This document shows, one piece after another, positions 9,532-29,948 of a DNA stretch of 64,000 nucleotides. A model generated the notes under the pieces. The model saw only the letters and a list, made by a program, of their open reading frames with translations. It did no database searches and had not been told where the DNA came from. Position 1 is the first letter of the stretch; the number at the start of each line of letters is the position of its first letter. The translations under genes were made by a program, and so were the position numbers. This DNA is from Variovorax sp. TBS-050B (GTDB lineage: Bacteria; Pseudomonadota; Gammaproteobacteria; Burkholderiales; Burkholderiaceae_C): NCBI RefSeq assembly GCF_029893635.1, contig NZ_JARXYR010000002.1, positions 1,587,001 through 1,651,000 on the forward strand, read 5' to 3'.

Positions 9532-9929
9532 CCAAGGCGGGCCGCGAGTTCCTGCGCTTCGCCGCGGTCGGCGCCGCGGGTTTCGTGGTCGACGTGGCGG
9601 TGCTCTACCTCGCGGCGCCCTGGCTCGGCTGGTACGGCGCGCGCGTGCTGTCCTTCCTTGTCGCCGCCACGGCCACCTGGGCGCTGAACCGGCGCTACAC
9701 CTTCACGACGCGGCGTTCGGGCACCTCGATCGTGCGCGAATACCTCGGCTATCTCGTCACCATGCTCGGCGGCGCGGTCGTGAACTACGGCGCCTACGTC
9801 GGGGTGCTGCATGCCTTCGAGGGCCGCTGGGTGCCCGCGCTCGGCGTCGCGGCCGGCAGCTGCGCGGGCCTGGTGGTCAACTTCCTGGCCGCGCGGCACC
9901 TCGTGTTCAAGGCGCGGCGCGAGCCCTAG
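9528..9929 (+). CDS. GtrA-like membrane protein (lipid-linked sugar flippase candidate)
   Basis: A 133-residue protein with four hydrophobic helices and the GtrA-family N-terminus (FLRFAAVGAAGFVVDVAVL) plus the typical WALNRRYTF motif near residues 55-64. The family is thought to flip undecaprenyl-phosphate sugars made by the partner GT2 enzyme. Its position as the last gene of the three-gene unit fits. The stop overlaps by four bases the stop of the convergent enamidase gene. Confidence 0.85.
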   Translation: MTKAGREFLRFAAVGAAGFVVDVAVLYLAAPWLGWYGARVLSFLVAATATWALNRRYTFTTRRSGTSIVREYLGYLVTMLGGAVVNYGAYVGVLHAFEGRWVPALGVAAGSCAGLVVNFLAARHLVFKARREP

Positions 9930-11116
9930 GCCAGCACCACCGGGATCTCGGTGGCGGGCGGCGTGTTGCGGCTGCGGCCGCAGCGCACGATGCCGTCGAT
10001 CATCACCATGCCCACGCCCGGGATGTCGCCGAGCTGCACGCTTTCGAGCAGGCCCGGCGCCGGCGAATGCTGGGCCCGGTCCATGAAGACGAAGTCGGCG
10101 TCGCGCCCGACCTCGATCAGCCCGCAGTTGAGCTTGCGGATTTTCGCGGTGTTGCCGGTGGCGAAGCAGAACACCAGCTCGGCCGGGATGTTGGCGATGG
10201 ACGAGAGCATCGCGATCATGCGCAGGATGCCGAGCGGCTGCACGCCCGAGCCCGCGGGCCCGTCGGTGCCGAGGATCACGCGGTGCGGGCACTTGAGTTC
10301 GAGCGCGGCCCTGGCCGCCGCGATCGCGACCTTCTCGTTGCCGTTGTGCACGATCTCGATCGCGCGCGAGCTCTTCTCGCAGAGCTCGCACACATGCGCC
10401 TCGGGCAGCGAGGTGTGGCCGCCGTTGATGTGGCCGATCACGTCGGCGTCGGCCTCGAGCACCACGTCCTTGTCGATCAGGCCCGAGCCCGGGATCGAGG
10501 GGCCGCCGGTGTGGATGGTGCTCTGGATGCCGTACTTGCGCGCCCAGGCGACCATCTCCTTGGCTTCGTAGCCGGCCTTGACCGAGCCCAGGCCCACTTC
10601 GCCGAGCAGGCCCACGCCGGCTTCGGCGAGCTCCTTGAAGTCGCTCTCGACCATGCCCTTCTCGATCACCGGCGCACCGGCGAGCACCTTCACGCCGCCG
10701 GGGCGGAAGTTGTCGAAGGCGCGCTGCGCGGTGATGGCCAGCGCCTTCAGGCCCACGATGTCCTTGGGCCGGCCCGGCAGGTGCACCTCGCCGGCCGAGA
10801 TCATGGTGGTGACGCCGCCGTTCATCGTCGAGTCGATCCAGCCGATCTGGCCCTGGCGCGGCGTCCAGTCGCCGAACACCGGGTGCACGTGGCTGTCGAT
10901 CAGGCCCGGCGCGACGCAGGTCTTCTTCGCATCGATGACGGTCTTCGCGCCCTCGAGGTCGCAGTCCTTCTGCTTGCCGACCGCGACGATCAGGCCGTCG
11001 TTCACCACGATGGTGTCGGCGTCGAGGATGGGGCGGTCGATGTCGCCCGAGAGCAGCAGCCCTATGTTCTGGATGACGACCTTGCCCGACTTGGCGCCGG
11101 TTGCGATTTCTGCCAT
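9926..11116 (-). CDS. Enamidase (1,4,5,6-tetrahydro-6-oxonicotinate ring opening)
   Basis: A 396-residue amidohydrolase-superfamily protein. Metal-binding motifs are visible in order: DSHVHP (about 70-75), LGEVGLGSVK, IHTGGPS, GHINGG and the catalytic Asp in LGTDGPAGSG. Of the amidohydrolases it most resembles enamidase of the nicotinate pathway, which hydrolyses 1,4,5,6-tetrahydro-6-oxonicotinate to 2-formylglutarate and ammonia. The 6-hydroxynicotinate reductase gene at 13068 and nicotinate dehydrogenase genes at 24304 support this. ATG 11116 is used (MAEIATGAK), with GAGGA upstream. The frame stays open further upstream without homology. The start overlaps the end of the TetR gene by 55 bases. 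Confidence 0.8.
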   Translation of the reverse strand: MAEIATGAKSGKVVIQNIGLLLSGDIDRPILDADTIVVNDGLIVAVGKQKDCDLEGAKTVIDAKKTCVAPGLIDSHVHPVFGDWTPRQGQIGWIDSTMNGGVTTMISAGEVHLPGRPKDIVGLKALAITAQRAFDNFRPGGVKVLAGAPVIEKGMVESDFKELAEAGVGLLGEVGLGSVKAGYEAKEMVAWARKYGIQSTIHTGGPSIPGSGLIDKDVVLEADADVIGHINGGHTSLPEAHVCELCEKSSRAIEIVHNGNEKVAIAAARAALELKCPHRVILGTDGPAGSGVQPLGILRMIAMLSSIANIPAELVFCFATGNTAKIRKLNCGLIEVGRDADFVFMDRAQHSPAPGLLESVQLGDIPGVGMVMIDGIVRCGRSRNTPPATEIPVVLA

Positions 11117-11832
11117 TTGCTTGTGTCCTCGTCGTGGGGTGGGGTGTTGCCTGCGTCCTGCGCCTCGTCCGCGCGCACCGTGCGCAGCAGCGTCTCGATC
11201 ACGAAGTCTTCCCAGTGCGCGATCGCCTCGGGCGATTCCAGCGGCTCGCCGAGGAAGGCGGTCAGCGTGTGCCGGTTCGAGGTGTAGAAGTAGCCGGTGG
11301 AGGCGATCAGCAGGTAGATGTCGCGCGCCACCAGGTCCTTGCGGAACAGGCCCTGCGCCGCGCCGCTCGCGAGGATCTCGGCGATGATCGCCACCGCGCG
11401 CGACGAATACTCGCGCGCCCGCAGCGACTTGGCGATGTGCCGGCCCTTGTGCAGGTTCTCGGTGTTGAGCAGCGTGACGAACTCGGGGTTGCGGCGGTAG
11501 TAGCCGAGCACGAAGCGGATCACCTCGGTCAGCGCCTCCACGGGTCGCGAGGCATCGAGCGCGATCGCGGCCTCGGCATCGTCCATGCGCTGGTAGATGC
11601 CCTCGAGCACCGCGATGAACAGGCCTTCCTTGCTGCCGAAGTAGTAGTAGATCATCCGGTCGTACGACTTCGCGGCCTTGGAGATCTTCTCGACGCTGCC
11701 GCCGTCGTAGCCGTACTTCGCGAAGACCTTGGTCGCCGCCTTCAGGATGCTGTCGCGCGTGGCCTGGGCCGCGGCCTCGCGCACGCCGGTGCGGCGCTGG
11801 GGCTTGGCGGCGGGTGTCTTGCGTTCGCTCAT
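11062..11832 (-). CDS. TetR-family regulator of the nicotinate cluster
   Basis: A 256-residue regulator with the TetR helix-turn-helix at about residues 24-68 (ILKAATKVFAKYGYDG, then EKISKAAKSYDRMIYYYFGS) and a helical ligand-binding domain to about 225. The last ~20 residues (rich in S, R, P) are read from DNA that also encodes the enamidase start, a 55-base overlap in another frame. ATG 11832 (MSERKTPAAK) is chosen because the upstream part of the frame has no homology and lies next to a repeat. It probably controls the divergent catabolic operons. A perfect 7-N7-7 palindrome at 12920-12940 is the best candidate operator. The ligand, possibly a nicotinate intermediate, is inferred. Confidence 0.8.
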   Translation of the reverse strand: MSERKTPAAKPQRRTGVREAAAQATRDSILKAATKVFAKYGYDGGSVEKISKAAKSYDRMIYYYFGSKEGLFIAVLEGIYQRMDDAEAAIALDASRPVEALTEVIRFVLGYYRRNPEFVTLLNTENLHKGRHIAKSLRAREYSSRAVAIIAEILASGAAQGLFRKDLVARDIYLLIASTGYFYTSNRHTLTAFLGEPLESPEAIAHWEDFVIETLLRTVRADEAQDAGNTPPHDEDTSKWQKSQPAPSRARSSSRT

Positions 11833-11980: not shown

Positions 11981-11981
11981 A

Positions 11982-12755
11982 TTACTTCTCTGCGAAGGCG
12001 CGCTCGACGACGAAGTCGCCGGGCGTGGAGGTGTTGCCTTCCTTGAAACCGCGTTCCTCGAGGATGTGCTTCAGGTCCACCAGCAGGCCGGGGCTGCCGC
12101 AGAGCATCACGCGGTCCTCGGTCGGGTTCAGCGGCGGCAGGCCAAGGTCGTCGGTGAGCTTGTTGGTCTTGATCAGGTCGGTGATGCGGCCCTGGTTGCG
12201 GAACTCCTCGCGCGTGACCGTGGGGTAGTAGAGCAGCTGCTTCGCGACCATCTCGCCGAGGAACTCGTGCTTGGGCAGGTGGTCGGTCACGAGGTCGTGG
12301 TAGGCCAGCTCGTCGACCTGGCGCACGCCGTGCACCAGGATGACCTGCTCGAACTTCTCGTAGGTGTCCGGGTCGCGGATGATGCTCATGAACGGTGCGA
12401 GGCCGGTGCCCGTGCCGAACAGGTAGAGGCGCTTGCCCGGCAGCGTGTAGTCGATCAGCAGCGTGCCCGTGGGCTTGCGGCCCACGATGATGGTGTCGCC
12501 CACCTGGATGTGCTGCAGCTTCGAGGTCAGCGGGCCTTCTTCCACCTTGATGCTGAGGAACTCGAGGTGCTCCTCGTAGTTGGGGCTCACGATGCTGTAG
12601 GCGCGCAGCAGCGGCTTGTTGTTGACCTTCAGCCCGATCATCGTGAAGTGGCCGTTCGAAAAGCGCAGCGCCGGATCGCGCGTGGTGGTGAAGGTGAACA
12701 GGCGGTCGGTCCAGTGGTGGACGCTGAGGACGCGTTCTTCGCTGAATGCACTCAT
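11982..12755 (-). CDS. fpr: Ferredoxin-NADP reductase
   Basis: A 257-residue protein of the bacterial Fpr type. The FAD-binding barrel holds RAYSIVSPN (about 51-59, the RxYS FAD motif), and the NADP-binding half has LFGTGTGLAPFMSIIRDP (about 112-129) and VMLCGSPGLL near residue 215. The C-terminus ends FVVERAFAEK, the aromatic-then-short-tail ending of this subclass. It passes electrons between NADPH and ferredoxin. Since 6-hydroxynicotinate reductase is ferredoxin-dependent in Eubacterium barkeri (established), this gene, divergent from it, may feed the pathway. A general housekeeping Fpr role is also possible. Start ATG 12755 (MSAFSEERV) is chosen over an upstream in-frame start lacking homology. 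Confidence 0.9.
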   Translation of the reverse strand: MSAFSEERVLSVHHWTDRLFTFTTTRDPALRFSNGHFTMIGLKVNNKPLLRAYSIVSPNYEEHLEFLSIKVEEGPLTSKLQHIQVGDTIIVGRKPTGTLLIDYTLPGKRLYLFGTGTGLAPFMSIIRDPDTYEKFEQVILVHGVRQVDELAYHDLVTDHLPKHEFLGEMVAKQLLYYPTVTREEFRNQGRITDLIKTNKLTDDLGLPPLNPTEDRVMLCGSPGLLVDLKHILEERGFKEGNTSTPGDFVVERAFAEK

Positions 12756-13067
12756 ACGGAACTCAAGAGTTGGTTGTGGACGGTGAGAGGTGGCTGAGCC
12801 GGAATGCACCCTGATGGGGCGGCAGGCACCGGCCGGCTGCGAACCCTCCATTGTCGTTGGTCGGAAAAACCCCGATGAACACCGCGAGAAAACACCATTG
12901 CAAGCATCGGGCCCGTTTGCTACATTGACCGCGAATGTAGTGAACGCAACATGAAAGTTTAGGGAATGCTACACAAACGAAAGCCGCCGCACAAGCGCAT
13001 CGACGGCACGGTTGTTGCAAACCCCGACGGCTGATCCAACCTGCAGCCCAACGCCCACGAGACCGCG
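12756..13067. other. Divergent control region between fpr and the hnr operon
   Basis: A 312-base non-coding stretch between two divergent operons. The right half is relatively AT-rich and includes the perfect palindrome at 12920-12940. Beyond that palindrome I see no second strong dyad, no RNA gene and no clear consensus promoter. TTGACC at 12925-12930 lies inside the palindrome and could be a -35 box for the rightward operon, in which case a bound repressor would block it. Confidence 0.5.
12920..12940. promoter_or_regulatory. Perfect palindrome, candidate TetR operator
   Basis: CTACATT (12920-12926), a 7-base spacer, then AATGTAG (12934-12940). It sits between the divergent fpr-tetR-ena and hnr operons, the usual place for a TetR-type operator. 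A TTGACC -35-like hexamer overlaps its left arm and spacer. Binding by the TetR protein encoded at 11062 is inferred from position and symmetry. Confidence 0.5.
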
Positions 13068-14684
13068 ATGACAGAACACACCAAGACAGACGGCATGCCC
13101 GGCATGGACATGCCGGTGGTCGCCGAAGCCGGTGCCGGCGCCTTCGGCAAGGCGCCGCCGCGCAACGAGCGCATGAGCGCCGCCAAGGTCGAGTGCAACG
13201 CCTGCCCGGTGCTGTGCCAGATCTCCGAAGGCCGCACCGGCGCCTGCGACCGCTACGCCAACCGCGAGGGCGTGCTGGTGCGCGTCGACCCGGTGGTGCT
13301 GCTGCGCCGCGAGCTCGCGAGCGAAGCGCCCGCGCTGGTGCCCTTCGACCGCCCCGCCGCCGAGAAAACCGAGGGCGCCGCCCCCGACTGGAACGGCGAC
13401 CTGCTGCATGCCGACGAGGTCTTCGTCACCGGCGTGGGCTCGTCCACCACCTACCCCGACTACAAGCCCGCGCCCTTCATCGTCGCCTCGAAGGCGCAGG
13501 GCGTGGACATGGTCACCGTCGTCACCGAAGGCATCTTCAGCTACTGCAGCTTCAAGGTGAAGATCGACACCGACCGCTACCTCGGCCCCGAACAGGCCAA
13601 CGTGCGCTACCGCGGCGAGGTGGTGGGCCACGTCACCACGGCCGAGTACGGCTCGCAGATGCTCTCGCTCGGCGGCGTGCACCACCTCACGGGCGGCAGC
13701 AAGAAGGAAGGCCGCATGACGGCCGAGCTGATGCAGCTGCTCGGCAACAAGAAGGCCGTGGAGTGCACCATCGACGGCGGCTCCACGCTCGTGATCCAGG
13801 CCGGCCGCGCGCCCATCGTCAACGGTGTCGAGGAGCAGCGCATGCGCGTGGGCTGCGGCTCCGCGGCGGTTGGCATCTTCGCGCGCCAGTTCGCGGGCCT
13901 GGCCGACGAGGTGGTGGTGGTCGACGACCACATCACCGGCGTGCTCACCGAGCACCAGGCCGGCCGCTGCCTCGACATGGCGCCCTCGGGCATCCAGATG
14001 CTCGGGCGCAAGTCGACGCCGGGGCGCTACTTCCAGGTGGCCAATCCGGGCAACGGCTGGGGCGGCACCGACATCGCCGATCCGCTCTCGATCATCGAGG
14101 GCTGGGAGGAGGGCGTGGCGCGTCCGGGCCTGCGCCTCCTGATGACCTCGACCACCGGCGAGCATGCGCAGTGGTACGTGCTCGACGCGGCGCTCAAGCC
14201 CGTCGAGCAGCCGATGCCGCCCGAGGTGCGCCGCATCGTCGATCGCATCGGCGAGAACTGCGAACCATCGCTGTGCACCGTGCTGTTCCTCGGTGGTGCG
14301 GGCGGGTCCCTGCGCGCCGGCGTGACAGAGAACCCGGTGCTGCTCACGCGGGCCATCAAGCGCGCGCTCGTCAACGTGACCTGCGGCGGTGCACCGGCCT
14401 ACGTGTGGCCCGGCGGCGGCATCACGGTGATGGCCGACGTCATGCGCATGCCCGACAACAGCTTCGGCACGGTGCCCACGCCGGCCATCGTGGCGCCGAT
14501 CGAGTTCAGCATGCGGCGCGCCGACTACGAGGCGCTCGGCGGCCACACCGCGAGCATCTTCACGCTCGAGCAGGCGCTCGCGCGCGGCGCGTGGCAGGAA
14601 GACGGCGCGCCGCTCGCGCGCCAGTGGCTCGCGATGGACGCGGCCAATCCGTGGCCGCTCGGGCACACGCCGATGCTGGGCTGA
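13068..14684 (+). CDS. hnr: 6-hydroxynicotinate reductase
   Basis: A 538-residue protein resembling 6-hydroxynicotinate reductase (EC 1.3.7.1), which reduces 6-hydroxynicotinate to 1,4,5,6-tetrahydro-6-oxonicotinate with reduced ferredoxin. The N-terminal region holds an iron-sulfur type cysteine group C43-x2-C46-x3-C50-x9-C60 (CNACPVLC then GACDRY). The long C-terminal part is glycine-rich with several GGG/GG turns and no recognised nucleotide motif. It starts a long rightward operon and is followed three bases later by a UPF0280 (ApbE-like) gene. The enzyme assignment rests on overall family recall and on the enamidase, dehydrogenase and nicotinamidase genes around it. Confidence 0.8.
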   Translation: MTEHTKTDGMPGMDMPVVAEAGAGAFGKAPPRNERMSAAKVECNACPVLCQISEGRTGACDRYANREGVLVRVDPVVLLRRELASEAPALVPFDRPAAEKTEGAAPDWNGDLLHADEVFVTGVGSSTTYPDYKPAPFIVASKAQGVDMVTVVTEGIFSYCSFKVKIDTDRYLGPEQANVRYRGEVVGHVTTAEYGSQMLSLGGVHHLTGGSKKEGRMTAELMQLLGNKKAVECTIDGGSTLVIQAGRAPIVNGVEEQRMRVGCGSAAVGIFARQFAGLADEVVVVDDHITGVLTEHQAGRCLDMAPSGIQMLGRKSTPGRYFQVANPGNGWGGTDIADPLSIIEGWEEGVARPGLRLLMTSTTGEHAQWYVLDAALKPVEQPMPPEVRRIVDRIGENCEPSLCTVLFLGGAGGSLRAGVTENPVLLTRAIKRALVNVTCGGAPAYVWPGGGITVMADVMRMPDNSFGTVPTPAIVAPIEFSMRRADYEALGGHTASIFTLEQALARGAWQEDGAPLARQWLAMDAANPWPLGHTPMLG

Positions 14685-14687: not shown

Positions 14688-15603
14688 ATGACCGCCCAAC
14701 GCACAGCGCTCGACAAGAACCGCTGGCACCTGAATCACGGCCCGATCGACATCGTGGCCGAGGCGCACGGCGACCCCTACGCGGTGGCCGCGGCGCACGA
14801 CGCCGCCTGGGCGCGCTTCGTGCACGTGCTCGACGAGCTGGTGCGCGAGCTGCCGCTGCTGCGCCTGCCCGCGAGCGACAACAGCCCGCCGCGCGGCGTG
14901 GTCGCACGGCGCATGTGGAACGCCTGCGCGGCGTTCTCGCCGATGTTTCTGACGCCGATGGCGGCCGTGGCCGGCTCGGTCGCGCAGGAGCTGATCGCCT
15001 TCTACGACCGGCCCGGCATCGAGCGGGCCTGGATCAACAACGGCGGCGACATCGCGCTGCATCTGGCGCCGGGCCAGTCGGCGCGCGTCGGCGTGTATGC
15101 CGACCTCGCGCGCTTCGACTGGCGCCAGCACGTCGATGGCGGCGGCCTGCTCGGCACCGACGGCCAGTTCGAGATCCGCGCCGAGCAGCCGGTGCGCGGC
15201 GTGGCCACGAGCGGCTGGCGCGGGCGCAGCTTCTCGCTCGGCATCGCCGACAGCGTGACCGTGCTCGCCGCCACCGCGGCGCAGGCCGATGCGGCAGCGA
15301 CCGTGATCGCCAACGCGGTCGACGTCGACGATCCGCGGATCGCGCGCAAGCCCGCCAACGAATGCAAGGACGACAGCGACCTCGGCGATTTCCTCGTCAC
15401 CGTCGACGTGCCGCCGCTCGCGCCCGCGCAGGTGCGCAGCGCGCTCGACGCCGGTGCGGCATGTACACGTCGGCTGCAGGGAGGGCGGCCTGGTCTGGGC
15501 CGCCCTGCTCGTTTGCCAGGGGCAGCTCCGACTTGTGGAGCCCTTATGCTCGAAGTCGCTGCCGGCGGCGCCGGCCGATGCAGTTGGTTCAGTATTTGCT
15601 TAA
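14688..15603 (+). CDS. UPF0280 (ApbE-like) family protein, frameshifted near its 3' end
   Basis: The first ~265 codons encode a UPF0280 protein, a distant relative of the ApbE flavin transferase (AAFSPMFLTPMAAVAGSVAQ, WINNGGDIALHLAPGQ). After base ~15480 the expected C-terminus (EGGLVWAALLVCQGQLRLVE) is found in the +1 frame and stops at 15603. In the original frame the reading continues with unrelated residues straight through into the next gene, to 16265. So a frameshift in or near 15478-15483 has removed the stop, giving a potential fusion with the DUF1185 protein. It starts three bases after hnr. A role in maturing the flavin of 6-hydroxynicotinate reductase is an attractive inference. 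Sequencing error cannot be excluded. Confidence 0.75.
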
Positions 15604-15623
15604 CGAAAAGCAAGGTTCTTTCC

Positions 15624-16265
15624 ATGATCGATATACGCCGCGTCTTCACCCAGATCGAGCACATCCACCACGAGTTCGGCCCGCGCGCCGACACCCCGTT
15701 GGTGCGCGGTGCCATCGGCGCGGTGCTGACCAATCCCTTCGCCGGCCGCTACGAGCCCGACATCCTCCCGATGATGGCGCTGCTCGATCCGGTGGGCGTG
15801 GACATGGCGCACCGCCTGCACGCCGCGATGGACGTGCCGCTGGAGCAGATCGCCACCTACGGCAAGGGCGCCATCGTCGGCGCCGCGGGCGAGCTGGAGC
15901 ACGGTGCGCTGTGGCACGTGCCCGGCGGCTACGCGATGCGCGAGCTGCTCGGCTGGAAGGGCGACCGCGCGGCCTACACCGCGGGCAAGGGCGAGGAGAA
16001 GACCGGCCAGCCCGGCAACGCGCTCTCGATCGTGCCCTCGACCAAGAAGGTGGGCCCGCCCGGCGCCGCGCTCGACGTGCCGCTCACCAACATCAACGCC
16101 AGCTACGTGCGCGGCCAGTTCGACGCGATCGAGGTGCGCGTGCCCGGCGCGCCCGCGGCCGACGAGATCGTCTTCATCCTCGCGATGAGCACCGGCTACC
16201 GCGTGCATGCGCGCGTGGGCGGGTTGCTGGCGAAAGACATCAGCAAGTGGGACGGCCTGCGCTGA
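15624..16265 (+). CDS. DUF1185 (amino acid synthesis) family protein, first copy
   Basis: A 213-residue protein of the AA_synth/DUF1185 family (Pfam PF06684). It shares with its paralogue at 16431 the segments IGAVLTNPFAGRY, ATYGKGAIVGAAGELEHGA, ALSIVPSTKKVG, ALDVPLTNINASYVRGQFD and a C-terminal DGLR. The biochemical function of the family is not established to my knowledge. Because two copies lie between 6-hydroxynicotinate reductase and its transporter, a step in handling the ring-opened product (2-formylglutarate or its derivatives) is a reasonable guess. ATG 15624 with AAGG upstream is used, although the frame is open upstream because of the frameshift in the preceding gene. Confidence 0.8.
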   Translation: MIDIRRVFTQIEHIHHEFGPRADTPLVRGAIGAVLTNPFAGRYEPDILPMMALLDPVGVDMAHRLHAAMDVPLEQIATYGKGAIVGAAGELEHGALWHVPGGYAMRELLGWKGDRAAYTAGKGEEKTGQPGNALSIVPSTKKVGPPGAALDVPLTNINASYVRGQFDAIEVRVPGAPAADEIVFILAMSTGYRVHARVGGLLAKDISKWDGLR

Positions 16266-16430: not shown

Positions 16431-17018
16431 ATGACCACCGCCAACATCCGCAAGCTCGTCATCCAGGTCGACGAGACCCGTAAGGAGATGGGCCAGGACA
16501 TCACGCCCCCCACGCGCCGCGCCGTCGCGATCGCCGTGATCGAGAACCCCTACGCGGGCCGCTACAGCGAGAACCTCGACCAGCTGATCGCGATCGGCGA
16601 GGAGCTCGGCGCGCTGCTCGGCCAGAAGGCCGTGAAGGCGCTCGGCATCGAGCCCGGCCAGGCGCAGAGCTACGGCAAGGCCGCGATCGTGGGCGAGGGC
16701 GGTGAACTGGAGCATGCCGCCGCGATCCTGCATCCCAAGCTCGGCGCGCCGCTGCGCGTGGCGGTCGAGAAGGGCGCGGCGCTGGTGCCCTCGGCCAAGA
16801 AGCGCGGCACGCTCGGCACCGCCATCGACGTGCCGCTCGGCCACAAGGACGCCGCCTTCGTGCGCAGCCACTTCGACGCCGTCGAGGCCCGCGTGTCCGA
16901 TGCGCCGCGCGCGAACGAGATCGTGGTGGCCGTGGCCGTCACCGACAGCGGCCGGCCGCTGCCCCGCATCGGCGGCCTGCAGGTTTCCGAAATCAAGGGC
17001 GAAGACGGCCTTCGCTGA
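16431..17018 (+). CDS. DUF1185 (amino acid synthesis) family protein, second copy
   Basis: A 195-residue paralogue of the protein encoded at 15624, with matching blocks IAVIENPYAGRYSEN, SYGKAAIVGEGGELEHAAA, GAALVPSAKKRG, TAIDVPLGHKDAAFVRSHFD and a C-terminal EDGLR. ATG 16431 (MTTANIRKL) is chosen: it follows GGGTGAG and the homology begins there, while the upstream frame is repeat DNA. Two different copies side by side suggest a heteromeric complex or two related reactions. The function is unknown. Confidence 0.8.
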   Translation: MTTANIRKLVIQVDETRKEMGQDITPPTRRAVAIAVIENPYAGRYSENLDQLIAIGEELGALLGQKAVKALGIEPGQAQSYGKAAIVGEGGELEHAAAILHPKLGAPLRVAVEKGAALVPSAKKRGTLGTAIDVPLGHKDAAFVRSHFDAVEARVSDAPRANEIVVAVAVTDSGRPLPRIGGLQVSEIKGEDGLR

Positions 17019-18395: not shown

Positions 18396-18429
18396 CCGTC
18401 GACCGACCATAGCCCTCTACCGCAAGCGA

Positions 18430-18530: not shown

Positions 18531-18544
18531 AAAGGACTTTTTTG

Positions 18545-21240: not shown

Positions 21241-21247
21241 ATACCGA

Positions 21248-21356: not shown

Positions 21357-21379
21357 ATCCCGCATTCCCTCAAGCCTCG

Positions 21380-22114
21380 ATGAACACCTCGGAACCTCTT
21401 CTAGAAGCCAAGGCCCTGTGCGCCTGGTACGGCGCCGCGCAGATTCTCTACGACGTCGACCTCGAGGTGCGGCGCGGCGAAGTGGTGGCGCTCATGGGGC
21501 GCAACGGCGCGGGCAAGTCGACCACGCTCAAGGCGTTGATCGGCATGCTCGGCAAGCGCCGCGGCGCGGTGCGCTTCCTCGGCCACGACATCTCGAAGAG
21601 CGAGCCGCACCATGCGGCGCGCCTGGGCCTGGGCTTCGTGCCCGAGGACCGGCGCGTGTTCACCGACCTCACGGTGATGGAGAACCTCGAAGTGGGCAAG
21701 CAGGCGCCGCGGCGCTGGACCGACGGCAGCGAGGCGCCGCTGTGGACGCCCGAGCGGCTGTTCAAGCTGTTCCCGAACCTCGGCGAGATGCCGCACCGCC
21801 CGGGCGGCCGCATGAGCGGCGGTGAGCAGCAGATGCTCACGGTGGCGCGCACGCTCATGGGCAACCCCTACCTGGTGCTGCTCGACGAGCCCTCTGAGGG
21901 CGTGGCGCCCGTGATCGTCGAGCAGATGGCGAACATGATCCTCGAGCTCAAGGCGCAGGGCGTGAGCATCCTGCTGTCGGAGCAGAACATGCACTTCGCC
22001 GAACTGGTCTCCGACCGCGCCTACGTGCTCGAGAAGGGCCAGATCCGCTACCAGGCCACGATGGCCGAGCTCGCGGCCAACGAGGAGGTGCGCCGCGCCT
22101 ACCTGAGCGTCTAG
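21380..22114 (+). CDS. ABC transporter ATPase (LivF type)
   Basis: A 244-residue second ATPase with Walker A GRNGAGKST (about 38-46), signature MSGGEQQML, Walker B LVLLDEPSEGV and the switch histidine replaced by Asn in SEQNMHFA, which is normal for LivF proteins. It pairs with the LivG-type ATPase on the fused permease. ATG 21380 starts just after a family A repeat. Confidence 0.92.
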   Translation: MNTSEPLLEAKALCAWYGAAQILYDVDLEVRRGEVVALMGRNGAGKSTTLKALIGMLGKRRGAVRFLGHDISKSEPHHAARLGLGFVPEDRRVFTDLTVMENLEVGKQAPRRWTDGSEAPLWTPERLFKLFPNLGEMPHRPGGRMSGGEQQMLTVARTLMGNPYLVLLDEPSEGVAPVIVEQMANMILELKAQGVSILLSEQNMHFAELVSDRAYVLEKGQIRYQATMAELAANEEVRRAYLSV

Positions 22115-22162: not shown

Positions 22163-22891
22163 ATGCACCGCAGAAGCTTCGTCGCAAGATCCGCTGCCAC
22201 CGCCCTCGGCCTGGCCGGCGGCCTCGGCAGCCTGAGTCTCAACGCCTTCGCGGCGGGCAGGGTGAAGCCCGACGGCAAGTCGGCGCTGCTCGTCATCGAC
22301 GTGCAGAACTGCTTCGTCGACGGCGGCACGCTGCCCGTGAAGGGCGGTGCCGAGGTGGTGCCGGTGATCAACCGGATCGCGGGCGCCTTCGCCAACATCG
22401 TGGTCACGCAGGACTGGCACACGCCCGGCCATGCCTCGTTCGCGAGCGCGCATGCGGGCCAGAAGCCGTTCAGCAGCATCAAGCTGAGCTATGGCAACCA
22501 GGTGCTCTGGCCCGACCACTGCGTGCAGGGCACCGACGACGCGGCGCTGCACAAGGACCTGCAGCTGCCCACCGCGCAGCTGGTCATCCGCAAGGGCTTC
22601 AACAAGGGCGTCGACAGCTACTCGGCCTTCGAGGAGGCCGACCGCAAGACGCCCACGGGCCTCGGCGGCTACCTCAAGCAGCGCGGCATCAGGACCGTCT
22701 ACGTCGCCGGCCTCGCGACCGACTTCTGCGTGGCCTGGACCGCGCTCGACGCGCGCAAGGCCGGCTTCGAGGTCTACGTGATCGAGGACGCCACGCGCGC
22801 GATCGACCTCAACGGTTCGCTCGCGGCGGCCTGGAAGCAGATGACGGCCAAGGGCGTCAGGCGCATCCAGTCCGGCGACATCGACGCCTGA
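22163..22891 (+). CDS. Exported nicotinamidase (isochorismatase fold)
   Basis: A 242-residue cysteine hydrolase. The catalytic triad is D46 (VIDVQN), K144 (IRKGFN) and C189 (GLATDFCV). Metal ligands D84, H86, H90 (TQDWHTPGHASF) and H119 (WPDHCVQGT) match PncA nicotinamidase/pyrazinamidase. It converts nicotinamide to nicotinate. The N-terminus MHRRSFVARSAATALGL with a hydrophobic stretch ending NAFA (about residue 30) looks like a twin-arginine export signal, unusual because PncA is normally cytoplasmic. It would supply nicotinate outside the inner membrane for uptake by the neighbouring ABC transporter. It follows GAGGAG with good spacing. Confidence 0.88.
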   Translation: MHRRSFVARSAATALGLAGGLGSLSLNAFAAGRVKPDGKSALLVIDVQNCFVDGGTLPVKGGAEVVPVINRIAGAFANIVVTQDWHTPGHASFASAHAGQKPFSSIKLSYGNQVLWPDHCVQGTDDAALHKDLQLPTAQLVIRKGFNKGVDSYSAFEEADRKTPTGLGGYLKQRGIRTVYVAGLATDFCVAWTALDARKAGFEVYVIEDATRAIDLNGSLAAAWKQMTAKGVRRIQSGDIDA

Positions 22892-22975: not shown

Positions 22976-24136
22976 ATGACGACTTCGATCTCGAGACGCG
23001 CCCTGATGGCGGGCGGCGCCGCGCTGGCCCTGGGGCCGGTGCTTTCGCTTGCGGTGCACGCGGACAACGGCGTCACCGACACTACGATCCGCATCGGCCA
23101 GTCGGCCGTGTTCAGCGGGCCGGCCAAGGACTTCGGCGTCGACTACCGCGCAGGCATCAAGCTCCACTTCGACCGCGTCAACAAGTCGGGCGGCATCCAT
23201 GGCCGGCGCATCGAGCTGGTCTCGTACGACGATGCCTACGAACCCGCGAAGACGGCCGCCAACACGGCCAAGCTGATCGACGAGGACAAGGTGTTCGCGC
23301 TCACGGGCTACGTCGCCACCGGCAACCTCGCGGCCGCGATGCCGCTCGCCGAGAAGGCCGGCGTGCCGATGTTCGCGCCGCTCGTGGGCACCAGTTCGTT
23401 CCGCGCCAAGACCAACCGCTACCTGTTCCACGTGCGCGCGGGCTACGACCTGGAACTGCGCAAGATCATCAGCCACCTCTCGACCATCGGCATCCATTCG
23501 ATCGCGGTGGTCTACCAGGACAGCGCCTTCGGCAAGTCGAACCTCGCGACCTGCGAGGAGCTCGCGGCCGACTACAAGGTCAAGGTCGAGAAGACCTTTC
23601 CGCTCGCGATCGCGGCCGAGGATGCGAAGCCCCTGGCCGCGGGCCTGGCCGAGGTCAAGCCCGGCGCGGTCGTGATGATCATGGCGGGCCGCCAGGTCGA
23701 GGTCTTCATGCGCGACTACCGCGCGACCGGCGTGGGCGCGCCGCTCTACACGCTCTCGGTCGGCATCACCGACGCGGCCGGTTCGGCCAAGCGGCTCGAA
23801 GGCAAGCTCGCGGGGCTGGTCACCGCCAGCATCGTGCCGCCGCCGCAGGCGCTGCGCATCCCGATCGTGGCCGACTACCAGCGCGACCGCGCCGAGTTCG
23901 GCGAGAAGATCGACAGCTACACCGCGCTCGAGGGCTACATCGCCGCGCGCGTGATGGCCGAGGGCCTGCGCCGCGCGGGCAAGGCGCTCACGCGCGACAG
24001 CTTCATCGCGGGGCTGGAGAGCATCGGCAGCACGCGCTTCGGCGACTTCCCGATCGAGTACAGCGCGAAGAACCACAACGGCTCGACCTTCGTCGACCTG
24101 GAGATGTACACCCGTGATGGCCAACTCCGGCGGTGA
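22976..24136 (+). CDS. ABC transporter periplasmic binding protein, second
   Basis: A 386-residue LivJ-type binding protein unlike the one at 17193 in detail. The N-terminus SRRALMAGGAALALG with cleavage near AVHA (residue ~29) is Tat-like. Fold markers include TIRIGQSAVFSGPAKDFGVD, FDRVNKSGGIHGRRIELV and VFALTGYVATGNL. A second binding protein close to one permease/ATPase set suggests the transporter accepts two ligands, for example nicotinate and a related acid (inference). GAGGAG lies upstream of ATG 22976. Confidence 0.88.
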   Translation: MTTSISRRALMAGGAALALGPVLSLAVHADNGVTDTTIRIGQSAVFSGPAKDFGVDYRAGIKLHFDRVNKSGGIHGRRIELVSYDDAYEPAKTAANTAKLIDEDKVFALTGYVATGNLAAAMPLAEKAGVPMFAPLVGTSSFRAKTNRYLFHVRAGYDLELRKIISHLSTIGIHSIAVVYQDSAFGKSNLATCEELAADYKVKVEKTFPLAIAAEDAKPLAAGLAEVKPGAVVMIMAGRQVEVFMRDYRATGVGAPLYTLSVGITDAAGSAKRLEGKLAGLVTASIVPPPQALRIPIVADYQRDRAEFGEKIDSYTALEGYIAARVMAEGLRRAGKALTRDSFIAGLESIGSTRFGDFPIEYSAKNHNGSTFVDLEMYTRDGQLRR

Positions 24137-24303: not shown

Positions 24304-24792
24304 GTGAAGACTGAATTGCCGCTGCTGAATCTGGAGGTCAACGGACGCGCGCATGCGCTTGAGGGCGTGCCGCGTGCGGCCACGCTGCTGCATCTGCTGC
24401 GCAACGACCTGGGGCTCAACGGGCCGAAGTACGGCTGCGGGCTCGGGCAGTGCGGTGCGTGCACGGTGCACGTCGACGGTGTCGCGGCGCGCGCCTGCGT
24501 GATTCCGGCGCATGGGGTCGCCGACCGGAGCATCACCACGCTCGAAGGGCTGGGTACGAAGGATGACTGGCACCCGGTGCAGGCCGCCTTCGAGGAAGCC
24601 CAGGCCGCGCAGTGCGGCTACTGCCTCAACGGCATGGTGATGCAGGCCGCGGCGCTGCTCACGCGCGATCCGAATGCGAGCGAGGCGCGCATCCGCGGCG
24701 AACTCTCGGGCAACCTGTGCCGCTGCGGCACGCACGTCGAGATCCTCGACGCGGTGCGGCGCGCGGCACTGCGCATGCAGCAGCAGGCATGA
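24304..24792 (+). CDS. nicA: Nicotinate dehydrogenase small (2Fe-2S) subunit
   Basis: A 162-residue protein with two [2Fe-2S] domains of the xanthine-oxidase family: plant-type cluster C45-x4-C50-x2-C53-x11-C65 (YGCGLGQCGACTVHV) and helical cluster C104-x2-C107 with C139-x-C141 (CGYCLNG, GNLCRCG). It relays electrons from the molybdenum site of the large subunit, whose start overlaps its stop (ATGA). I chose GTG 24304 (VKTELPLLNLEV) because homology begins there; no strong ribosome binding site is visible and upstream DNA is a family B repeat. Isoquinoline or aldehyde oxidoreductase subunits look alike; the neighbouring pathway genes favour nicotinate. Confidence 0.85.
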   Translation: MKTELPLLNLEVNGRAHALEGVPRAATLLHLLRNDLGLNGPKYGCGLGQCGACTVHVDGVAARACVIPAHGVADRSITTLEGLGTKDDWHPVQAAFEEAQAAQCGYCLNGMVMQAAALLTRDPNASEARIRGELSGNLCRCGTHVEILDAVRRAALRMQQQA

Positions 24793-27700
24793 ACCGGCGC
24801 GCCGACCTGCCGCGCACGCGCGCGGAATTCCTCTCGGCCGACGGCGTGCTGCTGGTGGTGCGCGAGACCCCGCCCGCGCCGCCGCCGGCCAAGGGCCAGC
24901 CGGCCTTCATCGCGGGCAACCCGGCCGAGGGCGACGAGATCCTGCTCGCGGTGTGGGACGACGGCAGCGCCTCGGCGCTCAACGGCCACGTCGACCTGGG
25001 CACTGGCATCCAGACCGCGCTGGCGCAGATCGTGGCCGAGGAGCTCGAGCTCGGCATGCCTTGCGTGCGCATGATGCTCGGCGACACCGCACGTGCGCCC
25101 AACCAGGGCGCGACCATCGCGAGCGCCTCGATCCAGATCCATGCGCAGCCGCTGCGCCTCGCGGCCGCGCAGGCGCGCGCCTGGCTGCTCGCACGCGCGG
25201 CCGAGCACTTGGGCGTGCCCGCCGAGATGCTGCAGATGCGCAACGGCCTGGTGCGCGTGGCCGAGGCGCCCGGGCGCCGCGTGAGCTACGCCGACCTGGT
25301 GCGCGGACAGCGCACGGTGCTCCGGCTCGATCCGCAGGCGCCCACCAAGAACCCGGCCGACTACCGCATCGTCGGCACGCGGCAGGCGCGCGTCGACATC
25401 CCGGCCAAGCTCGCGGGCGAGCAGGTCTTCGTGCACGACATGCGCGTGCCCGGCATGCTGCACGGGCGCGTGGTGCGACCGCCGTACGCGGGCGCGGACC
25501 ACGGCGACTTCATCGGCAACACGCTCGAATCGGTCGACGAATCGTCGATCGCGCACATCCCCGGCATCCGCGCGGTGGTGGTGATCCGCGATTTCGTCGG
25601 CATCGTGGCCGAGCGCGAGGAACATGCCGAGCAGGCGCTGCGCGAACTGCGGGTCGCATGGAAGCCCTGGCCCGGCATGCCCGACCTGGGCGACGTGGCG
25701 CAGGCGCTGCGCGACAACCCGTCGACCCAGCGGCTGCTGGTGGACGAGGGCGACGTCGACCGCGCCCTGGCCGGCGCCGACCGGCCCATGCCGCGCACCT
25801 ACGTCTGGCCCTACCAGATGCATGCGTCGATCGGGCCCTCGTGCGCGCTTGCCGAGTGGCAGCCCGCCGACGGCGGCGCGGTCCGGCTGCGCTGCTGGGC
25901 CGGCACGCAGAACCCGCACGTGCTGCGCGCCGACCTCGCGAAGCTCATGGGCCTGCAGGACCTGCAGGTCGACGTGGTCCGCATGGAGGCCGCGGGCTGC
26001 TACGGCCGCAACGGCGCCGACGACGTCGCGGCCGATGCGGCGCTGCTCGCGCGCGCGGTCGGCGCGCCGGTGCGCGTGCAGCTCACGCGCGAGCAGGAGC
26101 ATGCGTGGGAGCCCAAGGGCGCGGCGCAGCTCATGGAGATCGACGGCGGCCTCATGGCCGACGGCCGCGTGGCCGCCTACGACTTCCAGACCTCGTACCC
26201 CTCGAACGGCGCGCCCACGCTGGCGCTGCTGCTCACGCGCACCATCGAGCCGCTGCCCCAGGCCTTCGAGATGGGCGACCGCACCGCGCGGCCGCCCTAT
26301 GCCTTCGACAACCTGCGCGTGAAGGTCAACGACATGGCGCCGATCGTGCGCGCCTCCTGGCTGCGCGGCGTGTCGGCGCTGCCGAGTTCGTTCGCGCACG
26401 AGTCGTACATCGACGAGCTCGCGACCGCCGCGGGTGTCGATCCGGTGCAGTTCCGGCTGCGCCACCTGAACGATCCGCGCGCGGTCGAACTGGTGCAGGC
26501 CACGGCGCAGAAGGCCGGCTGGCGCATGCGCACCGGCCCGCAGGAGAACGCCGACGGCGGGCTCGGCGCTGGTGGCGACATCCTCTTCGGCCAGGGCTTC
26601 GCCTATGCGCGCTACGTGCACAGCAAGTGGCCGGGCTTCGGTGCGGCATGGGCGGCATGGGTGGCCGACGTGGAGGTGAATCGAAAGACGGGCGAGGTGC
26701 ACGTGCGCCGCGTCGTCGTGGGGCACGACGCCGGGCTGCTCGTCAACCCCGCGGGCGTCGAGCACCAGGTGCACGGCAACGTGATCCAGACCACCAGCCG
26801 CGCGCTCAAGGAGCAGGTGCAGTTCGCGCCGCAGGCCGGCGCCGGGGCGGGCGGCGCGCAGCTGCCCGGCGTGCTGCCTTCGGGCGTGGTCGCGAGCCGC
26901 GAATGGGGCAGCTATCCGATCATCAACTTCCGCGAAGTGCCGGTGATCGAGGTGATGCACATGCCGCGGCCCGGCGAGCCCTCGCTGGGCGCGGGCGAAT
27001 CGTCCTCGGTGCCGGGGACGGCGGCGATCGCGAATGCGATCTTCGATGCGACGGGGGTGCGCTTTCGTGCGCCGCCGTTCACGCCGGAGACGGTGCTGGC
27101 TGCGCTCGATCAGGAGTTTCTCGCTCCCCCGCCGGGGGAGGGCGGGGGTGGGGGCGAGCGGCGAGCGGGTGGTGACGCCGTTACGCCCCCATCCCAACCT
27201 TCCCCCAGCGGGGGAAGGAGCAATACCGTCTGGCCGAAGCGCAAAGGGGTCTGGGCGACCGGTGCTGCGCTCGTCGTCGGCGGCATCGGCGTCATCGCCG
27301 GCCTGCTCGGCTGGCGTGCCGCGATCGCCCCCGTCACGCTGACCGCCCCGGTCTACAGCGAGGCCACCATCGAACGCGGCCGCGTGCTGGCCGCGCTGGG
27401 CGACTGCGCCGTCTGCCACACCGCGCCGGGCGGCGCACCCAATGCGGGCGGCCGCGCGATGGAGACGCCCTTCGGCACGCTCTACACCACCAACCTCACG
27501 CCTGACCCCGAGACCGGCCTCGGCCGCTGGTCCTTCAGCGCCTTCCAGCGCGCGATGCGCGAGGGCGTCTCGCGCGACGGCCACCATCTGTACCCGGCGT
27601 TTCCGTACACCGCGTTCGCGAAGACCAGCGACGACGACCTGCAGGCGCTCTATGCCTACTTCATGGCGATGCCCGCGGTGCGCGCGGAGACGCCCAAGGC

Positions 27701-28544
27701 CGAACTCAAGTTCCCGTTCAGCCTGCGGCCGCTGATGGCGGGGTGGAACGCGCTCTTCCACGACCCCGCGCCCGCGCAGCCCGTGGCCACGCAGAGCGCC
27801 GAATGGAACCGCGGCGCCTACCTCGTCAACGGCCTCGGCCACTGCGGCGCCTGCCACACGCCGCGCAACGCGCTCGGCGCGGAGCAGGGCGGCAGCGCGT
27901 ACCTCTCGGGCGCGATGGTCGACGGCTGGGAAGCGCCGCCGCTCACGTCGCTCGCATCGAAGTCCGCCATGCCCTGGGACGCCGAATCGCTCTACCGCTA
28001 CCTGCGCCACGGCCATTCGCCGCGCCACGGCATCGCGGGCGGGCCAATGGCCGAGGTGGTGCGCGAGCTCGGCGCGGTGCCCGATGAAGACATCCGCGCG
28101 ATGGCGACCTACCTCGCCGCGTTCAACGGCGCCGCGCCGGTGCCCGAAGCCCAGGCGCAGGCCGAGGCGCAACGCGTCGTCGCAGCCGCCGCGCGCCAGC
28201 AGGGACGGCTGCTCGGCCCCGCGCAACGCATGTTCGACAGCGCCTGCGCCGCCTGCCACCACGACGGCGACGGCCCCACGCTGCTCGGCGTGAACACCCC
28301 GCTCGCGCTCAACAGCAACCTCACGAGCGCGAAGCCCGACAACCTGCTGCGCACCATCCTCGACGGCGTGCGCGAGCCCGCCACGCGCGACATCGGCTTC
28401 ATGCCCGCCTTCCGCGAAGCGCTCGACGACCGCCAGATCGCCGAACTCGCGGGCTACATGCGCGCGCGCTTCGCGCCGCAGGAGCCCGCCTGGCCCGACC
28501 TGCAGGCGCAGGTGGCGCGGGTGCGGAGGGCGAAGGGGCATTGA
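24789..28544 (+). CDS. nicB: Nicotinate dehydrogenase large subunit: molybdopterin domain fused to a tri-haem cytochrome c
   Basis: A 1,251-residue protein. Residues ~1-765 form a molybdopterin-binding large subunit of the IorB/NicB type (GTGIQTALAQIVAEEL, MEAAGCYGRNGADDVA, catalytic Glu737 in LGAGESSSVPG). A 35-residue Gly/Pro linker is encoded by an intergenic-type repeat. A membrane helix follows at ~820-843 (GVWATGAALVVGGIGVIAGL). Then come three c-type haem sites C873-x2-CH, C1019-x2-CH and C1153-x2-CH. It hydroxylates nicotinate at C6 using water and passes electrons via the 2Fe-2S subunit and haems to the respiratory chain, as in Pseudomonas NicAB. It overlaps nicA by four bases. Confidence 0.88.
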   Translation: MNRRADLPRTRAEFLSADGVLLVVRETPPAPPPAKGQPAFIAGNPAEGDEILLAVWDDGSASALNGHVDLGTGIQTALAQIVAEELELGMPCVRMMLGDTARAPNQGATIASASIQIHAQPLRLAAAQARAWLLARAAEHLGVPAEMLQMRNGLVRVAEAPGRRVSYADLVRGQRTVLRLDPQAPTKNPADYRIVGTRQARVDIPAKLAGEQVFVHDMRVPGMLHGRVVRPPYAGADHGDFIGNTLESVDESSIAHIPGIRAVVVIRDFVGIVAEREEHAEQALRELRVAWKPWPGMPDLGDVAQALRDNPSTQRLLVDEGDVDRALAGADRPMPRTYVWPYQMHASIGPSCALAEWQPADGGAVRLRCWAGTQNPHVLRADLAKLMGLQDLQVDVVRMEAAGCYGRNGADDVAADAALLARAVGAPVRVQLTREQEHAWEPKGAAQLMEIDGGLMADGRVAAYDFQTSYPSNGAPTLALLLTRTIEPLPQAFEMGDRTARPPYAFDNLRVKVNDMAPIVRASWLRGVSALPSSFAHESYIDELATAAGVDPVQFRLRHLNDPRAVELVQATAQKAGWRMRTGPQENADGGLGAGGDILFGQGFAYARYVHSKWPGFGAAWAAWVADVEVNRKTGEVHVRRVVVGHDAGLLVNPAGVEHQVHGNVIQTTSRALKEQVQFAPQAGAGAGGAQLPGVLPSGVVASREWGSYPIINFREVPVIEVMHMPRPGEPSLGAGESSSVPGTAAIANAIFDATGVRFRAPPFTPETVLAALDQEFLAPPPGEGGGGGERRAGGDAVTPPSQPSPSGGRSNTVWPKRKGVWATGAALVVGGIGVIAGLLGWRAAIAPVTLTAPVYSEATIERGRVLAALGDCAVCHTAPGGAPNAGGRAMETPFGTLYTTNLTPDPETGLGRWSFSAFQRAMREGVSRDGHHLYPAFPYTAFAKTSDDDLQALYAYFMAMPAVRAETPKAELKFPFSLRPLMAGWNALFHDPAPAQPVATQSAEWNRGAYLVNGLGHCGACHTPRNALGAEQGGSAYLSGAMVDGWEAPPLTSLASKSAMPWDAESLYRYLRHGHSPRHGIAGGPMAEVVRELGAVPDEDIRAMATYLAAFNGAAPVPEAQAQAEAQRVVAAAARQQGRLLGPAQRMFDSACAACHHDGDGPTLLGVNTPLALNSNLTSAKPDNLLRTILDGVREPATRDIGFMPAFREALDDRQIAELAGYMRARFAPQEPAWPDLQAQVARVRRAKGH
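27123..27221. repeat. Family C inverted repeat inside the nicB reading frame
   Basis: Two halves are imperfect inverted copies: GCTCCCCCGCCGGGGGAGGG with following GGGGGTGGGGGCG on the left, and CGCCCCCATCCCAACC with TTCCCCCAGCGGGGGAAGG on the right. Each half also folds on itself. Such G/C-run repeats are usually intergenic in Comamonadaceae. Here it is read in frame as the Gly/Pro/Ser-rich linker of NicB, residues about 778-811. Confidence 0.75.
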
Positions 28545-28557
28545 GGGCTGTCGAATC

Positions 28558-28684: not shown

Positions 28685-28757
28685 CCCGCATCCAGCGGCC
28701 TCCCCCAGCACAGCGCTACGATCCCGTCCATCCCCTACCCACACACAGAGACAACCC

Positions 28758-29948
28758 ATGCCCCTCAGCCTCGACGCTTCCTCGACCCTTCCGCAAGACG
28801 CCGCGCGCGCCACCCTCGTCGGCCGCGTCTGGCAACCCGGCGTCGGCCCGGTCCTGGTCGCGGTCCATGAGGGCGGCTTGCACGATCTCTCGCAAGTGGC
28901 GCCCACGATGAGCGACCTGCTCGAGATGAAGGGTTCGCCCGCCGATGCAGTGCAGCGCGCGGTGCAAGGCGGCAAGGCGCCGCGCATCGCCACGCTGGCC
29001 GAAGCCCTCGCCAACAGCGACGGCACCGTCGCGCGCGACGAGGCCCGGCCCTGGCTGCTCGCGCCCTGCGACCTGCAGGCCATCAAGGCCAGCGGCGTGA
29101 CCTTCGTCGAGAGCCTGCTCGAACGCGTGATCGAGGAACAGGCGCGCGGCGATGCGTCCAAGGCCGAAGCCACGCGCGCGGCGCTCGGCGGCGTGCTCGG
29201 CGACAACCTCGCGGGCATCGTGCCGGGCTCGGACGCGGCGGCCAGGGCGAAGGAAGTGCTGATCGCGCAAGGCGCGTGGTCGCAGTACCTCGAAGTGGGC
29301 ATCGGCCCCGATGCCGAGATCTTCACCAAGGCGCCCGTGCTCTCGTCCGTGGGCACCGGCGCGGACATCGGCATCCACGCCGCCTCGGTCTGGAACAACC
29401 CCGAGCCCGAGGTGGTGCTCGCGGTCAACAGCCGCGGCGAGACGCTGGGCGCGGCGCTCGGCAACGACGTGAACCTGCGCGACTTCGAAGGCCGCAGCGC
29501 GCTGCTGCTCGGCAAGGCCAAGGACAACAACGCCTCTTGCGCGATCGGTCCCTTCATCCGGCTGTTCGATGCGCACTTCGGCATCGAAGACGTGCGCCGC
29601 ATCACCGTGGCGCTCGAGGTCCGGGGTCCCGAGGGCTTCGTGCTCGAGGGTTCGAGTTCGCTCGCCAAGATCAGCCGCGATCCGCTCGACCTCGTCGGGC
29701 AGGCCATCGGCGCGCACCACGACTATCCGGACGGCTTCATGCTGTTCCTCGGCACCATGTTCGCGCCCACGCAGGACCGCCATGGACCGGGGCAGGGCTT
29801 CACCCATGTGGTCGGTGACGAAGTGCGCATTTCGGCACCCGAACTGGGTACCCTGCTGAACCGCGTCGTGCACGCCGATCAGGCGCCGCGGTGGACTTTC
29901 GGCTTAAGCGCACTCATGCGCAGCCTCGCCGCACGAAAACTGCTGTAA
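28758..29948 (+). CDS. Fumarylacetoacetate hydrolase (FAH) family protein
   Basis: A 396-residue protein of the FAH superfamily. The catalytic core is roughly residues 150-380, with acidic metal-ligand positions in VGIGPDAEIFTK (about 180), NNPEPEVVLAV (E-x-E type, about 216) and GNDVNLRDFEG (about 235). The family includes sugar-acid dehydratases, hydratases and C-C hydrolases. The length and N-terminal extension resemble araD1/2-dehydro-3-deoxy-D-arabinonate dehydratase-like members. Its placement just after nicB suggests it may act on a downstream nicotinate intermediate, but a separate transcription unit and sugar-acid role are equally possible. Confidence 0.75.
   Translation: MPLSLDASSTLPQDAARATLVGRVWQPGVGPVLVAVHEGGLHDLSQVAPTMSDLLEMKGSPADAVQRAVQGGKAPRIATLAEALANSDGTVARDEARPWLLAPCDLQAIKASGVTFVESLLERVIEEQARGDASKAEATRAALGGVLGDNLAGIVPGSDAAARAKEVLIAQGAWSQYLEVGIGPDAEIFTKAPVLSSVGTGADIGIHAASVWNNPEPEVVLAVNSRGETLGAALGNDVNLRDFEGRSALLLGKAKDNNASCAIGPFIRLFDAHFGIEDVRRITVALEVRGPEGFVLEGSSSLAKISRDPLDLVGQAIGAHHDYPDGFMLFLGTMFAPTQDRHGPGQGFTHVVGDEVRISAPELGTLLNRVVHADQAPRWTFGLSALMRSLAARKLL

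Follow-up and report, generated by a model that had tools for sequence, protein, structure and literature searches.

Nicotinate fermentation in Eubacterium barkeri employs a four-subunit FAD dehydrogenase, 6-hydroxynicotinate reductase (Hnr) and an enamidase, and forms propionate and pyruvate by way of 2-(hydroxymethyl)glutarate. The NicAB enzyme of Pseudomonas putida KT2440 consists of a small subunit with two [2Fe-2S] clusters and a large molybdopterin subunit that carries three motifs for haem c, and in this organism NicC oxidises 6-hydroxynicotinate. Kitts reportedly found in 1992 that nicotinate hydroxylation is coupled to respiration through a cytochrome, and in 2006 Alhapel is said to have traced the pathway genes in nine Proteobacteria. 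The closest described cluster type is known from Azorhizobium caulinodans, Bradyrhizobium and strain SG-6C, as presented in the legend and text belonging to Fig. 4 of PMC3511419; according to this source SG-6C breaks down 6-hydroxynicotinate, and for A. caulinodans an aerobic metabolism of tetrahydro-oxonicotinate via glutarate has been published. In this study we analyse such a cluster in a 64,000-nucleotide stretch of the Variovorax sp. TBS-050B genome (the window) and outline two partner rules that are new: the UPF0280 protein goes with Hnr, and D2, one of two subfamilies of DUF1185 proteins, goes with the enamidase. The roles that we infer from these rules are derived from sequence comparison.

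The Variovorax island and its closest relatives

The island is a well-preserved member of the published reductive nicotinate/nicotinamide catabolic cluster type. It has the Hnr and enamidase chemistry in common with E. barkeri, but encodes a tri-haem cytochrome-type dehydrogenase rather than an FAD enzyme. The two dehydrogenase subunits are built like those of P. putida NicAB, whereas 6-hydroxynicotinate is predicted to be reduced and not, as by NicC, oxidised. Compared with the Azorhizobium, Bradyrhizobium and SG-6C clusters, as far as the legend and text of PMC3511419 portray them, the window holds two DUF1185 genes and a frame change near the end of the UPF0280 gene. Since the cluster and the aerobic glutarate pathway have already been published for Azorhizobium and relatives, a “fermentative” reductase in a host that respires aerobically has precedents, and the novelty that an initial annotation of this DNA had seen in an “anaerobic” route falls away. 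The sequence analysis did confirm every gene named there (enamidase, Hnr, ferredoxin-NADP reductase, DUF1185 pair, uptake system, nicotinamidase and NicAB-type dehydrogenase), at corrected coordinates. Overlooked had been the UPF0280 gene after hnr, a TetR gene and a palindromic operator.

Two operons diverge from a promoter region at about 12.9 kb. The leftward operon comprises the genes for a ferredoxin/flavodoxin-NADP+ reductase (FNR), the TetR regulator and the enamidase; the rightward operon starts with hnr, UPF0280, D1 and D2:

9926..11116, minus strand: enamidase (amidohydrolase); Amidohydro_1, start inferred
11062..11832, minus strand: TetR-family regulator; TetR_N and TetR_C_29, start inferred
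11982..12755, minus strand: FNR, PRK10926-like; NF008178 138.6 bits, below the equivalog cut-off of 390
12920..12940, no strand: palindrome CTACATT-N7-AATGTAG in the intergenic region of the two operons; probable operator for TetR
13068..14684, plus strand: Hnr, 538 aa; identity to named Variovorax proteins
14688..15480, plus strand: UPF0280 (COG2122) ApbE-fold protein; NF003322 374.2 bits, cut-off 290
15624..16265, plus strand: DUF1185 (PF06684), D1 subfamily by tree; PF06684 208 bits (gathering threshold 27), start inferred
16431..17018, plus strand: DUF1185 (PF06684), D2 subfamily by tree; PF06684 239.3 bits (gathering threshold 27)

The enamidase lies in a 661-aa open reading frame (ORF), whose N-terminal part merely shares DNA with the TetR gene, in a different frame.

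The occurrence of Hnr, UPF0280, enamidase and DUF1185 was counted across 299 genomes (the host genome bears the label G000), and homologues of the enamidase and of a further gene of the FAH family were called present at E <= 1e-30. Gene order was compared in 80 named loci, the best 80 of 591 confirmed stretches by score, which are skewed to Burkholderiales. Pfam scans covered 105 of 124 listed neighbouring ORFs and 118 of 180 ORFs flanking hnr. The gene set recurs across the 80 named loci, and its co-occurrence in the window is thus not due to chance. The earlier description of a reductive nicotinate/nicotinamide island with a cytochrome-type nicotinate dehydrogenase is supported.

Judged by homology and gene order, after the published Azorhizobium pathway, it is very likely that this genome encodes the reductive route. 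Nicotinamide would be hydrolysed outside the cytoplasm, and nicotinate would then be imported and converted by the NicAB-type dehydrogenase to 6-hydroxynicotinate, with electrons passing to cytochrome c. Hnr would reduce 6-hydroxynicotinate to 1,4,5,6-tetrahydro-6-oxonicotinate at the expense of NADPH, with FNR as the probable electron supply; the FNR gene directly adjoins hnr in 61 of the 80 named loci, though not in Paraburkholderia-type loci. The enamidase would then release ammonia and 2-formylglutarate, the ring opening given for this enzyme in PMC9304392. Finally, 2-formylglutarate would be decarboxylated to glutarate semialdehyde and processed via glutarate to glutaryl-CoA by enzymes encoded outside the island; none of these could be singled out in the genome, which contains 19 CoA_transf_3 matches. 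We assign a probability of roughly 0.7 to the explanation as a whole, i.e., to this pathway together with the preferred roles of UPF0280, D1, D2 and TetR set out below.

UPF0280 as a partner of Hnr

Hnr is 95% identical to its counterpart in the Variovorax sp. CF313 locus and up to 94% identical to Variovorax proteins named 6-hydroxynicotinate reductase. A conserved N-terminal CxxCPxxC...C motif probably binds an Fe-S cluster. No Pfam family matched Hnr at E <= 0.001, and the sole Pfam row at E <= 10 was GCV_T_C (E 0.049). The protein has no convincing sequence relative in the PDB and its predicted model (predicted template modelling score 0.69) yielded no fold match, which for a model of this kind does not demonstrate a new fold.

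The UPF0280 protein is restricted to exactly the genomes that contain Hnr, the same 21 of 299, and its gene is located directly 3' of hnr in every locus with sequence extending past hnr. Based on this distribution and position, UPF0280 is a probable Hnr maturase, and we favour, with some reserve, a dedicated maturation factor of some kind. The more specific proposal that it attaches a covalent flavin to Hnr is doubtful. ApbE proteins are marked by the flavin loop H-x-x-x-P-x-T-G and by the Asp/Thr metal site A-D-x-x-x-T. UPF0280 has the ApbE fold: its matches are ApbE/Ftp structures with titles that denote flavin transferases, some of them also FAD pyrophosphatases. Moreover, a metal-type motif is retained, with D201 invariant and T205 present in at least 90% of 41 sequences.

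Several observations weigh against a flavin-inserting maturase. The Pfam ApbE score of UPF0280 is 19.1 bits, under the cut-off of 25.6, and the flavin loop is absent, as judged by eye from 21 rows of the 41-sequence alignment. The UPF0280 reading frame is altered in this very genome, and PMC12068725 describes a relative from methanogens as a protein of sulfur trafficking. By analogy with the role proposed for this relative, MA1715, UPF0280 might instead traffic sulfur or assemble Fe-S clusters for Hnr, an unlikely alternative. This reading would fit what PMC12068725 and PMC5764234 say of UPF0280 relatives, as well as the missing flavin loop and the conserved Cys motif of Hnr, but it sits poorly with the flavin transferase descriptions of the fold matches and with the retained D201/T205 motif. 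The partner protein COG1900 (HcyBio, PF01837), too, was found in none of 398 Pseudomonadota genomes, G000 included. According to PMC5764234, the homocysteine-synthesis protein COG2122/DVU1097 has DUF39/COG1900 as its partner, whereas the UPF0280 partner here is Hnr. A kinship of Hnr to COG1900, which would explain a common UPF0280 partner, was considered and failed: there was no Pfam link, no fold match and no Pseudomonadota COG1900 sequence for a profile comparison. Among the matches listed in the open-access literature, as far as their text was available, none assigned UPF0280 or DUF1185 a part in the breakdown of nicotinate.

The window shows one peculiarity of this gene pair. A single ORF (14688-16265, 525 residues) contains two genes in one frame, UPF0280 and D1, and the UPF0280 C-terminus known from relatives is found in a different frame, with the frame change near 15480. 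An established UPF0280-DUF1185 fusion was rejected, as none of 79 named loci is fused and the relatives' C-terminus lies in the other frame; these two findings indicate a frame change in the genome or the assembly. Between 15470 and 15624 the UPF0280 frame shifts and then runs into the DUF1185 gene, through either a real change or an assembly error.

Two DUF1185 subfamilies and the enamidase

The enamidase is 84-98% identical to its counterparts where these are present in named loci, and 78-81% identical in Paraburkholderia-type loci. Its His/Asp residues are preserved, with H71, H73, H197, H224 and D280 among the positions invariant in 67 sequences. Yet only 11 of the 21 Hnr genomes encode an enamidase, and 10 contain no homologue. 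Of the 299 genomes, 41 contain DUF1185, and all Hnr genomes but one (20 of 21) are among them. D1 and D2 were assigned in Hnr genomes by best-match classification, which covered 20 Hnr loci and another ten. With all DUF1185 sites counted, D2 occurs in all 11 enamidase-positive Hnr genomes and in none of the 10 that lack the enamidase; such a perfect split has a chance of 2.8e-6 if the 21 genomes are independent, and they fall into fewer lineages. D1 shows another pattern: it follows UPF0280 at the Hnr locus in 9 of the 10 enamidase-less genomes, while D2 stands there without D1 in 6 of the 11 enamidase-positive ones (family f41), and also in seven named loci. Two enamidase-positive genomes have the enamidase gene beside a pair of D1 and D2 at a site apart from hnr (L168, L172). 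Twelve named loci have no enamidase in the stretch; eight of the genomes were searched, and in seven the enamidase was found elsewhere.

The DUF1185 tree comprises 76 of 196 collected sequences (135 after a first thinning), which were thinned by hand, so that some rows, e.g., L172, dropped out. D2 forms one group with support of 94/93, below the tool's star. D1 falls into another group (100/99) together with proteins from FAH/quinone-reductase loci, and because of these proteins from other loci, the tree does not establish D1 by itself as a clade. Gene layout was read around 31 of 33 other DUF1185 loci (two had no called ORF). Thirteen trigonelline-like loci form a group with support of 100/100; this group and a “hydroxycoumarin-like” group beside MhpA-like hydroxylases (3 loci, 100/99) are both separate from D1 and D2.

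Across these branches, 23 positions show the same residue in roughly 94% or more of the 103 Hnr-linked sequences and likewise of the 32 others, among them K109, E118, E120, H121, R135, R171, H173, E189, R201 and R205, and the family looks like a carboxylate-binding enzyme. The trigonelline and nicotinate routes both give a 2-formyl dicarboxylate or semialdehyde with loss of CO2. In BB2672, a DUF1185 member of solved structure, a cavity is described with conserved Glu90, His93 and Arg176 (PMC2954203). Likewise, TgnF (trigonelline) and HcdD (7-hydroxycoumarin) are DUF1185 proteins in aromatic and heterocycle catabolic operons, and a stimulation of succinate semialdehyde oxidation has been reported for TgnF (PMC7913881). 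Loci of the TgnF and HcdD type represent other branches of the tree than D1 and D2; TgnF and HcdD themselves lie outside the tree.

Our tentative proposal, with the odds slightly against it, is that the formyl acid or semialdehyde arising from the enamidase reaction is the substrate of D2, which would decarboxylate or tautomerise it or open its cyclic lactol form. D1 appears to belong to an alternative, enamidase-independent branch, and many Burkholderiales, this genome included, have both D1 and D2. The initial annotation had singled out the DUF1185 pair as candidates for new reactions, a suggestion that is supported and narrowed by the two distribution patterns. Several points count against these assignments. 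The D2-enamidase split is phylogenetically non-independent; genome G342 (reached through locus L083) has D2 and no enamidase was found in it, the L083 contig beginning about 1 kb before hnr; and G139 has Hnr and UPF0280 without DUF1185. The coumarin pathway has no obvious formyl acid, and according to PMC7913881 attempts to show a stimulating effect for HcdD failed. The G139 locus (L142) further encodes an FAD-type nicotinate dehydrogenase subunit beside Hnr and UPF0280, and this genome contains neither DUF1185 nor enamidase.

Alternatively, D1 might itself be the ring-opening lactam hydrolase of enamidase-less genomes and serve as a backup in Variovorax sp. TBS-050B. We regard this as improbable: the retention of D1 after UPF0280 in 9 of 10 enamidase-less genomes speaks for it, as does the fact that genomes with enamidase and D2 may lack D1 at the Hnr locus, but G139 keeps Hnr with neither D1 nor enamidase, D1 also occurs alongside the enamidase, and a hydantoinase A near four enamidase-less loci could open the ring. 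Hydantoinase A is encoded near Hnr in L135, L138, L144 and L145, accompanied in L138 and L145 by hydantoinase B, and is a possible alternative ring-opening enzyme in these genomes. In two genomes without Hnr, DUF1185 genes (L174:5065, L177:4071) adjoin the gene of an amidohydrolase 42% identical to the enamidase; these pairs possibly represent another lactam catabolic route.

A combined view would make Hnr an Fe-S flavoprotein of unsolved fold, matured by UPF0280 as a loop-less, flavin-inserting ApbE branch, and DUF1185 a class of formyl-acid/semialdehyde enzymes across ring pathways, of which one subfamily is coupled to the enamidase and another takes over its ring-opening step. This conjunction is improbable.

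Substrate, regulation and remaining genes

The rightward operon continues after D2 with a binding protein, a fused permease, two ATPases, the nicotinamidase, a second binding protein and the NicA- and NicB-type subunits, and is followed by a gene of the FAH family; apart from the second binding protein, the genes of the ATP-binding cassette (ABC) importer span 17193-22114:

17193..18395, plus strand: periplasmic binding protein of a branched-chain/urea-type ABC importer; Peripla_BP_6
18545..20479, plus strand: importer permease, fused; two BPD_transp_2 stretches
20476..21240, plus strand: ABC ATPase, LivG/UrtD type; within ORF 19024-21240, start inferred
21380..22114, plus strand: ABC ATPase, UrtE/LivF type; profile matches
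22163..22891, plus strand: nicotinamidase with Tat-like signal peptide; NF008623 178.8 bits, cut-off 174, N-terminus judged by eye
22976..24136, plus strand: second periplasmic binding protein; Peripla_BP_6
24304..24792, plus strand: [2Fe-2S] subunit of nicotinate dehydrogenase, NicA/NdhS type; Fer2 and Fer2_2, start inferred
24789..28544, plus strand: molybdopterin and tri-haem cytochrome c subunit, NicB type; MoCoBD_1, MoCoBD_2, Cytochrom_C and Cytochrome_CBB3
28758..29948, plus strand: member of the FAH family, sugar-acid dehydratase type, probably a bystander; of the genomes searched, only those of Variovorax show linkage to hnr

The nicotinamidase had been described as exported, in agreement with its profile score above the cut-off and its Tat-like N-terminus. 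The tri-haem character ascribed to NicB was likewise borne out by counting: the protein of 1251 residues contains exactly three CxxCH motifs (27405, 27843, 28245), all C-terminal, and together with its molybdopterin domains and the small [2Fe-2S] subunit it makes up a NicAB-type dehydrogenase.

It is very unlikely that the cluster serves another N-heterocycle, with nicotinate as a side substrate only. DUF1185 relatives do occur in other ring pathways, but the nicotinamidase gene is part of the operon, the Hnr identity to named 6-hydroxynicotinate reductases is as high as noted above, and SG-6C, with the same cluster type, degrades 6-hydroxynicotinate (PMC3511419, legend and text).

For the nicotinate route, the proposed regulator of the two operons is TetR, with the palindrome at 12920-12940 as its probable binding site. 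With up to 2 mismatches allowed, the perfect palindrome CTACATT-N7-AATGTAG has one match in the window, where 0.01 would be expected, and it can be extended to longer, imperfect arms. At the same tolerance it lies upstream of hnr in 34 of the 80 named loci (25 exact) versus none of 80 shuffled controls, a count that includes many close relatives and hence not independent events; the spacers printed for these loci vary. On the other side of the balance, no such site was found upstream of hnr in 46 of the 80, Paraburkholderia included.

The FAH-family gene, previously taken for an island member and a candidate for a new reaction, is probably a bystander that came to lie beside the island by proximity, given that its linkage to hnr is confined to Variovorax and that the protein seems to resemble 2-keto-3-deoxy-pentonate dehydratases. 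Of 25 Variovorax genomes, 19 have it no more than 20 kb from hnr (one has it further off, five on another contig). None of 22 other Hnr-positive genomes does: five have no homologue, five carry it on the same contig at a distance of at least 333 kb and 12 on another contig. Draft contigs leave a little room for linkage that escaped notice, but no FAH gene was present in the 20-kb Hnr stretches read. The protein scores 58.6 bits against PDB 2q18; the close structure 9kkt has no functional name, and the literature search found no paper on it. A role after ring opening is most unlikely, since its position next to the island here and in those 19 Variovorax genomes is offset by its absence near hnr in all 22 others, which excluded it as a core pathway gene, and by the annotation of D-type 2-keto-3-deoxy-pentonate dehydratases as FAH family (PMC7374468). 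Right after this gene, a type VI secretion cluster starts at 30087, with genes for ImpA-N, VipA, VipB, Hcp, ImpE and TssF identified up to 37372.

The island itself adds one more ordinary example to a published cluster type, and the comparative result is more useful than the island. About half of the sampled Hnr genomes (10 of 21) have no enamidase homologue at E <= 1e-30 and would presumably open the ring with another enzyme. UPF0280 and DUF1185, two hitherto uncharacterised families, gain specific partners and testable roles.

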